DNA of 64,000 nucleotides from an uncultured Bacteroidota bacterium (GTDB taxonomy: Bacteria; Bacteroidota; Bacteroidia; B-17B0; Aurantibacillaceae). Location of the stretch: assembly GCA_903834765.1 (NCBI GenBank), contig CAILKE010000004.1, positions 186,001 to 250,000 on the forward strand. The letters are read 5' to 3'. The translations under genes and the position numbers were made by a program. Of this stretch, positions 2,195-4,491 are shown piece after piece. The notes beneath the pieces were generated by a model. It did not search any database. It saw only the letters and a program-made list of their open reading frames with translations, and was not told where the DNA came from. Position 1 is the stretch's first letter; each line of letters begins with the position of its first letter.

Positions 2195-3274
2195 ATGAAC
2201 CAATATTTAATAGAATTAAAAAAAATTACGGATAATTATGAAAATTATCAGAGAGTTGAGGACCTTCAGCAACAATTGTATGCTTTATCTTCAATGATTG
2301 ACAATGATAAGAAAGATGAAATAAAAACTTCCATAAAAGCGAGTGATTTGGTTACTACTATTATGGATGGTTTTTTAAATAAAAATACGGTAACAGATAT
2401 TGTAAAATCAGGTTTAGCTTCTTTTGATAGTATTATTAATGGATTTCAGAAAGGTGAGTTTGTTGTAATTGGAGGAAGGCCTGGCATGGGTAAAACACAA
2501 TTTTTAGTTCAGTTGGCAGTAAATATGGCTAAACAAAATAAAGTAGTAGCTTTTATAAGTTTAGAAATGAGTGCTGAAATGGTGACTAAGAAATTTTTAT
2601 GTAATTTGGGTCAATTAAATCCCGATATTTTTAATCGGCAGGTTGCTTACCCTAAAGAAGTTGAAGTTGGTTTATTAGGCGCAAGTAAACAATTAAATGA
2701 GCTTCCGATATATTTATATGAAAATCCAAGTTCTTATCTAAATAAATTGTTAGATCTAATCCGAAGATTAGTTGAGGATAAAAAAACGAACATAGTATTT
2801 ATTGATTACCTTCAATTAATAACCATAGGAAGTCGTCGATTTAACAGAGAGTCCGAAATTTCAATTATTTGCAGGGAAATCAAAAGAATAGCTGCTGAAT
2901 TAGATATAATAATTATTGTTGCTTCACAATTGAGTAGGCAAGTCGAGAATAGACCTGGAGGAAGCAAACGCCCACAATTGTCTGATTTGAGAGAGAGTGG
3001 AGCTATTTAGCAAGATGCTGACAAGGTTATTTTTTTGTACAGAGCAGAATATTATGGGATTGAAGTTGATGAAAACAATCAACCTACATCAAACAGAATG
3101 GAAATAATTTTAGGTAAAAATAGAAATGGCCCTTTATTGGATACAACTGTTTTTGCTGCATTTTCTAAGTCAATGATTGTTGATATTGAATCTAAAAGCA
3201 ATGACATTTATATACGAATGCCTGATATTAAAATTGATATAGATAGATTAAAAGATTTTGAATCGGATTTGTAA
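2195..3274 (+). pseudogene. DnaB-like replicative helicase ATPase domain, interrupted by in-frame TAG
   Basis: The frame reads 271 codons from ATG 2195 to a TAG at 3008-3010, then continues in the same frame for 87 more codons to TAA at 3274. Both halves match the DnaB C-terminal RecA-fold ATPase: Walker A GRPGMGKT (residues 94-101), SLEM (122-125), Walker B with DYLQL (204-208), QLSRQVENRPGGSKRPQLSDLRESGAI just before the stop is too long to quote as one motif but its end LSDLRESGAI is typical. After the stop come QDAD and YRAEYYGI. In DnaB the residue at the stop is normally Glu, so one base change (GAG or GAA to TAG) explains it. The DnaB N-terminal domain (about 100-150 residues) is missing, so this is not the cell's main DnaB. 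The truncated product would lack the arginine-finger region. The gene ends 33 bases before the retron RNA on the same strand and is the best candidate for a retron partner. Alternatives: sequencing error, readthrough, or a decayed phage gene. Confidence 0.8.
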
Positions 3275-3297
3275 AATATATTGATGAAATATTTTAA
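3268..3297 (+). promoter_or_regulatory. Candidate promoter of the retron RNA
   Basis: TTTG at 3268-3271, an 18-base spacer and TATTTTAA at 3290-3297 resemble the Bacteroidota promoter TTTG-N19-TAnnTTTG, with mismatches at the end of the -7 box. Transcription would begin at about 3304, almost exactly at the a1 repeat of the msr-msd RNA. It overlaps the end of the helicase gene. Confidence 0.4.
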
Positions 3298-3303
3298 ATA
3301 AAA

Positions 3304-3460
3304 AATAACCGTCGTTGCAAGCTATTATGTGTCGGTTTAAAGACAAAGTGGTTGTGTTCCGCAACTCAAGTACTAAATGCAAGTAAGCTCCTTGCTAGAT
3401 TCCGGGAAAACCCGCAATCTAGCAGGTAAAGTTTTTAAGATAATAAAGCAACGGCGGTTT
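3304..3460 (+). ncRNA. Retron msr-msd RNA
   Basis: The RNA is bounded by inverted repeats a1 (3307-3318, AACCGTCGTTGC) and a2 (3448-3459, GCAACGGCGGTT), which pair over 12 positions with one G-U. Just after a1 is AGC (3320-3322), the usual context of the branching guanosine, here G3321. The msr part then has small stem-loops: 3330-3333 with 3342-3345, and GTTGTG (3351-3356) with CGCAAC (3360-3365) around a TTC loop. The msd part has a long hairpin: 3391-3401 pairs with 3416-3426 (11 pairs, one of them G-U), a C/C mismatch, then CGGG (3403-3406) with CCCG (3411-3414) capped by AAAA. The reverse transcriptase begins 18 bases after a2, the normal retron layout. The exact 5' end and the extent of the reverse-transcribed DNA are inferred. 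Confidence 0.88.
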
Positions 3461-3477
3461 AATATTAATACCATTAA

Positions 3478-4491
3478 ATGACAATTACGAAATCACTTGT
3501 TTATCCTAAATTAACCTCTCTCAAAAATTTACTTTTGAATGTGGAAGATTTTTATGATTTGCAAATTTTATTGAAAGTAGGGGCAAGGGAATTAGAATCA
3601 CATATTAATAAACCTATTTATAATTCATTTCAAATCCCAAAAAAGAAAGGTGGATTTCGTAAAATACTTTCACCAAATGATGATTTGTTGCAAATTCAGA
3701 AACAATTGAATTTGTATTTTCAAGCAATTTATTTATTAGTTAAACCTACTAATGTTCATGGGTTTATTGCTAAACCTAAGGGTTACGAAATAAATCATTC
3801 TATCATGAGTAATGCATTTGTGCATACTAATAAAAAACATGTTTTAAATATCGACTTAAAAGATTTCTTTCCATCAATATCCGCATCTCGGGTTAGGAAA
3901 GTCTTAGTTAATCATATTGGGCTTAATGACAATCAAATTGCTGATGCAATTGCGTTATTGTGCACGTATCAAAAGTCATTACCAGTAGGCGCACCCACAT
4001 CTCCTGTATTAGCAAATTTTACATGTTTAGATTTAGATAAAGAATTATTATCCTATTGCAGTTTATATGATATTACTTATACACGTTATGCCGATGATTT
4101 AACATTTTCATCTCAGGATTATTTTAATAGCGAGACCATTAAATTTATTAGGTCTATTATTGATAAACATCATTTTATTATTAATGAAAAAAAGTTTCGC
4201 TTATTGTCCTCTCAATCAAAACAAACAGTTACAGGTATAACGGTAAATGAAAAATTGAATGTAAGTAGGGTATACATTCGTAACATTAGAGCAATTTTAC
4301 ACAATATAAAAATTGCAGGTATTGAGGCGGCCACTAAAAAACATTATAAGGTTGTTTTTGCTGATTCTTTATTACAGAAAAAACTTGTATCTAAACTCAA
4401 TGGTCAAATTGATTTTGTAGGACAGGTTAGAGGTAAAGAGGATGTAATTTATAATAAACTAAAGAGCTCTTATTTATCAATAAGTAGATAA
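3478..4491 (+). CDS. Retron-type reverse transcriptase
   Basis: 337 residues, starting at the ATG 18 bases after the msr-msd RNA. The retron hallmarks are all present: the region X motif NAxxH (NAFVH, 112-116), the catalytic aspartate in DLKDFF (126-131), the PVGAPTSPVLAN block (169-180), the YADD active site (204-207) and the region Y VTG motif (251-253). Known role: the enzyme primes from the branching G of its own RNA and copies msd to give msDNA, with RNA and DNA joined by a 2',5' bond. Known retrons are anti-phage systems in which RT plus msDNA hold an effector in check. No maturase or HNH domain is present, which excludes a group II intron. Length is typical. No effector gene follows on this strand, so the upstream DnaB-like gene or the convergent gene at 4785-5462 are the candidates. 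Confidence 0.95.
   Translation: MTITKSLVYPKLTSLKNLLLNVEDFYDLQILLKVGARELESHINKPIYNSFQIPKKKGGFRKILSPNDDLLQIQKQLNLYFQAIYLLVKPTNVHGFIAKPKGYEINHSIMSNAFVHTNKKHVLNIDLKDFFPSISASRVRKVLVNHIGLNDNQIADAIALLCTYQKSLPVGAPTSPVLANFTCLDLDKELLSYCSLYDITYTRYADDLTFSSQDYFNSETIKFIRSIIDKHHFIINEKKFRLLSSQSKQTVTGITVNEKLNVSRVYIRNIRAILHNIKIAGIEAATKKHYKVVFADSLLQKKLVSKLNGQIDFVGQVRGKEDVIYNKLKSSYLSISR

Follow-up and report, generated by a model that had tools for sequence, protein, structure and literature searches.

Does a gene for a relative of the replicative helicase DnaB, located shortly before a structured RNA and a reverse transcriptase (RT) gene in an uncultured Bacteroidota bacterium, belong with them to a retron? In retrons a structured RNA is copied by an RT into a small branched RNA-DNA molecule, usually as part of a bacterial anti-virus alarm. 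The locus is in a 64,000-nucleotide stretch of DNA, here termed the window. Its preferred reading, to which a probability of about 0.72 is assigned, is a tripartite retron, predicted to combine in one operon the gene of the DnaB-like helicase, the msr-msd RNA and the gene of the retron RT, with the helicase as putative effector.

With the RT as query, the order, class and phylum were searched, as were genome and viral collections, and some 31 related loci besides that of the window emerged, mostly from Bacteroidota (a genome scan with the single RT gave no match, and it was the RT alignment as query that recovered the relatives; L024 repeats L003). In these, a DnaB-like gene lies upstream of the RT. 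The DnaB-like ATPase, a short RNA-bearing gap and the retron RT are on a single strand. Among 18 loci, that of the window included, no gene other than DnaB and RT is widely shared, which argues that these two and the RNA travel as a cassette. It is also why the DnaB-like protein is considered the probable effector, a function predicted from the company that its gene keeps. Viral contigs do have relatives of the RT, but only one of them (L103) has both the DnaB-like gene and the RNA. One locus from Bacilli (L039) was excluded, its gene before the RT being only weakly DnaB-like, its RT outside the clade and the RNA without a match there, as were three (L045, L054 and L091) whose DnaB matches lie past the RT by over 1 kb.

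The fold of the RNA (Table 1) is genuine. The folding energy of 3307–3459 is −55.6 kcal/mol against −32.6 ± 3.5 for dinucleotide shuffles (z = −6.6, with none of 200 shuffles as low), and the strand that would be copied from the msd also folds, as DNA (z −5.4). The original prediction was of a retron msr-msd with a 12-bp a1/a2 stem containing one G-U, two msr stem-loops and a 15-bp msd hairpin. All of these are seen, the last as 11 + 4 bp separated by the mismatch, and the relatives, the covariation and the RT strongly support the retron reading. A second stem, P2, inside a1/a2 had been overlooked. When relatives were checked for the paired repeats, they were found to carry them. No Rfam family reaches its gathering score with the RNA (a match to SCARNA7 is due to chance), and the source genome has one copy of it.

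Table 1. Features of the locus, in window coordinates
Feature	Position	Strand	Basis
DnaB-like ATPase gene (probable effector), TAG-interrupted frame	2195–3274	+	Pfam DnaB_C 1.7e-54 and 1e-8 on two parts
msr-msd RNA, a1 to a2 (predicted)	3307–3459	+	fold z −6.6; covariation (26 sequences); model match 60.3 bits
a1, outer stem strand, AACCGTCGTTGC, pairs with 3448–3459	3307–3318	+	fold, covariation
P2 inner stem, 5′ strand, pairs with 3440–3445	3323–3328	+	fold, covariation
G3329, predicted 2′-OH priming guanosine	3329	+	conserved G; position equals Eco2 rG15
msr hairpin 1, 4 bp, weakly conserved	3330–3345	+	fold, covariation
msr hairpin 2, GGTTG...CAACT	3350–3366	+	99.2% of cells paired; loop letters invariant
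msd hairpin, 15 bp, C/C mismatch, AAAA loop	3391–3426	+	fold energies
G of AGAT, predicted first reverse-transcription template base	3439	+	adjoins P2; invariant in alignment
P2 inner stem, 3′ strand, pairs with 3323–3328	3440–3445	+	fold, covariation
a2, outer stem strand, GCAACGGCGGTT, pairs with 3307–3318	3448–3459	+	fold, covariation
Retron reverse transcriptase, 337 aa, NAXXH, YADD, VTG	3478–4491	+	Pfam RVT_1, PADLOC, structure matches

For covariation, 26 aligned sequences, stripped of the variable msd, were examined for a structure of four helices, in which 93.4% of pairs are standard. Both sides have changed in 14 of the 23 pairs, compared with 6.0 ± 1.5 on shuffling; the covariation score is 0.252 (0.139 shuffled), a value reached by none of 500 shuffles; and sliding the pairing by 1–3 columns drops the paired fraction to 33–56%. 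Most of the covariation is in the outer a1/a2 stem (8 of 9 pairs), which played no part in placing the sequences. The second msr hairpin is the most conserved of the family in the alignment. Because its motif and that of P2 helped to place the sequences, these two give less independent evidence by their conservation than a1/a2 does. Twenty sequences were used to train a model of the msr part, and with it six loci outside the training set were recovered (E 2e-5 to 0.04), each in the gap between DnaB and RT. L021 escaped the model, which produced no convincing match at RT loci that have no DnaB.

Within the msd, a shared motif, CACTNCGTTC, is present in strict form in 11 of 32 stretches (L002, L004, L013, L015, L016, L021, L023, L026, L028, L030 and L031) and is absent from the window. 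With both strands counted, it occurs just 19 times in all loci together (2.48 Mb), and it may serve for recognition at the tip of the msDNA. Directly 3′ of a2, 25 of the 32 loci have a run of at least five Ts, which to judge by its letters is like an intrinsic terminator between RNA and RT; the window is without the run.

Which base would prime copying? In proved retrons the a1/a2 stem has the priming G at its inner end, usually in the context AGC (PMC6868368), and G3321, which is in such a context, had been proposed. However, AGC between a1 and P2 is a feature of one of the 32 loci, the window alone, and the conserved G at the inner end of the stem is in a TATG context instead. A G follows TATG, or ATG alone in the most divergent loci, in every one of the 32. 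In the window this is G3329, directly after the P2 inner stem, and the proved branch base of Eco2, rG15, likewise follows the last paired base (PMC12405507). Because of the 32/32 occurrence of the G after P2 and the 1/32 occurrence of AGC, G3329 is preferred as the better candidate and priming at G3321, in its AGC, is set aside as unsupported, the choice being one from conservation that depends in part on the motif anchors. AGAT, with G3439, also served as such an anchor.

A promoter of the form TTTG-N18-TATTTTAA had also been proposed, one that might let RNA and RT be expressed independently of the helicase. The pattern is indeed there, at 3268–3297, but it is unsupported as a functional element. 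It is at the equivalent place in none of 31 relatives, TATTTTAA is without the final TG of the Bacteroidota −7 box TAnnTTTG (an end that is near-invariant; PMC6847099), and a loose version of it turns up in the window at about 0.47 per kb per strand; a private promoter at that position was therefore rejected. In a sigma-70 scan, 22 matches against an expected 19.4 ± 3.9 amount to no excess. The distance from helicase stop to RT start has a median of 188 nt (159–265, with one outlier of 630), and in most relatives the predicted priming G is merely 20–55 nt after the helicase stop. Since RNA and RT trail the helicase so closely in nearly all relatives, co-transcription is argued for in place of separate expression, and the arrangement suggests that the three form one operon.

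The helicase frame of the window is cut by a TAG at 3008–3010, at a position where Glu is invariant in 12 aligned relatives. The N-terminal part (2195–3010) is of 271 aa, and the frame beyond, 3011–3274, is open. The TAG may be a nonsense mutation, an assembly error or a site of read-through. Because it cuts the frame, this genome may have lost its effector, barring either of the latter two. A somewhat less than even chance is given to the cassette having decayed, with the helicase inactivated and RNA and RT a remnant in this strain. The substitution of so conserved a Glu points that way, as does the lack in the window msd of the tip motif and T-run found in many relatives, but no other stop interrupts the frame, both RT and RNA are intact, and the single base could be an assembly error.

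In the relatives the DnaB-like proteins match DnaB_C at up to 2.5e-78. An AlphaFold model of the L026 helicase (pLDDT 81) matches DnaB structures (E 2e-27, 30% identity), and the DnaB fold and Walker A are kept. These are not the features of housekeeping DnaB throughout: scores with TIGR00665 are 200 and 287 bits against a cut-off of 385, and the N-terminal domain is present in only two (L053 and L072) of six proteins scanned. At L026 position 121, where canonical DnaB has the Glu of SLEM, Asp is nearly invariant; the window copy keeps Glu. No PADLOC retron effector model recognises the DnaB-like protein (there are only weak general ATPase matches, e.g. to mad8), and neither PADLOC nor NCBIfam has a retron model covering such a partner.

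In the tripartite retron envisaged, a1/a2 and P2 would jointly present G3329, and the RT would bind the msr and prime on the 2′-OH of that base. Copying would start near G3439 and yield RNA-linked single-stranded DNA with the hairpin of 3391–3426. On the analogy of studied retrons, the DnaB-like ATPase would be restrained by the RT-msDNA complex and set free by a phage that disturbs the msDNA, after which the freed helicase could disturb replication forks so that phage and host replication stop. Such guarding of the DnaB-like protein, with its release or activation at forks on phage attack, is the most likely role on that analogy. It is possible, though rather doubtful, that the protein is instead a sensor or motor subunit of the retron, which would load on msDNA or phage forks and block phage replication specifically, without killing of the cell. 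The retained fold and Walker A fit this, as do the scores below the housekeeping cut-off and the mostly missing N-terminal domain, which point to a specialised protein. The partner gene of studied retrons, on the other hand, is usually a toxic effector.

That the system is a retron at all is argued for by the family of its RT. PADLOC retron RT models match it at up to 3.7e-95, a profile of 16 relatives best matches the solved Ec67 (4e-64) and Ec86 (3e-54) retron RTs, with group II and DRT enzymes far behind, and NAXXH (region X), YADD and VTG (region Y) are invariant in the 16 (for the definitions of the region X and Y motifs see PMC6868368). A clade of 41 rows in the RT tree (SH-aLRT 98) includes 33 of the 34 DnaB-linked rows. 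Its other eight comprise six RTs that have no DnaB and two loci, L027 and L036, cut off by the contig end on the upstream side of the RT. The DnaB-less six (L049, L064, L067, L068, L079 and L090) are beside cas1-like and mostly cas2-like genes, named from their sequence without a family search, and apparently represent a retron-type RT lineage taken up by CRISPR adaptation modules. A non-retron RT-RNA defence system of DRT type with a non-branched product is highly improbable: RT systems with other RNAs do exist, and one branch of the clade adjoins cas1/cas2, but NAXXH and VTG, the a1/a2 design and retron RT matches far above those to DRT and group II enzymes are against it. What counts against the tripartite retron is the interrupted helicase of this copy, the lack of a DnaB effector in PADLOC and the six clade loci beside cas1/cas2.

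A DnaB-partnered retron has probably not been described before. Such a partner is absent from the retron catalogues searched, and no DnaB or helicase retron was found by literature searches; because their coverage did not include the 2020 retron classification, novelty is probable and not proved. A 2026 preprint has sixteen retron subtypes, with more being classified, and among retron effectors are ATPases, cold-shock proteins, HNH, HEPN and membrane effectors (PMC13405049). Only tentatively can a Bacteroidota-wide, undescribed retron type be pictured whose effector is a captured replicative helicase, with the msDNA as a ligand keeping the DnaB-like ring idle until infection frees it to block or wreck forks. 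Retrons would gain a new kind of partner, a DnaB-like replication helicase, and some 30 loci and their conserved RNA are available for testing. If the helicase is the effector, retron sensing would have a direct link to the replication fork. The RT-RNA pairs, being native to Bacteroidota, could also become DNA-writing tools for that phylum.

Of known systems, Eco2 (Ec67; RT-Toprim, PADLOC I-C) has the solved RT closest to that of the locus (4e-64), and it too has its branch G directly after the a1 stem, with a short msr stem-loop (PMC12405507). However, its msd is different and the Toprim domain that is its effector is fused to the RT, whereas the RT here is separate and its partner DnaB-like. 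The best PADLOC RT models are those of types XI (RT-protease; 3.7e-95) and XII (RT-TIR; 8.9e-83), but their effectors are also RT-fused and none is DnaB-like. Though the locus proteins are below the NCBIfam cut-off for replicative DnaB and most members scanned lack its N-terminal domain, they share with it the ATPase domain and linker region, at about 30% identity and with a confident fold match over some 330 columns. The true DnaB of the genome is probably encoded elsewhere.
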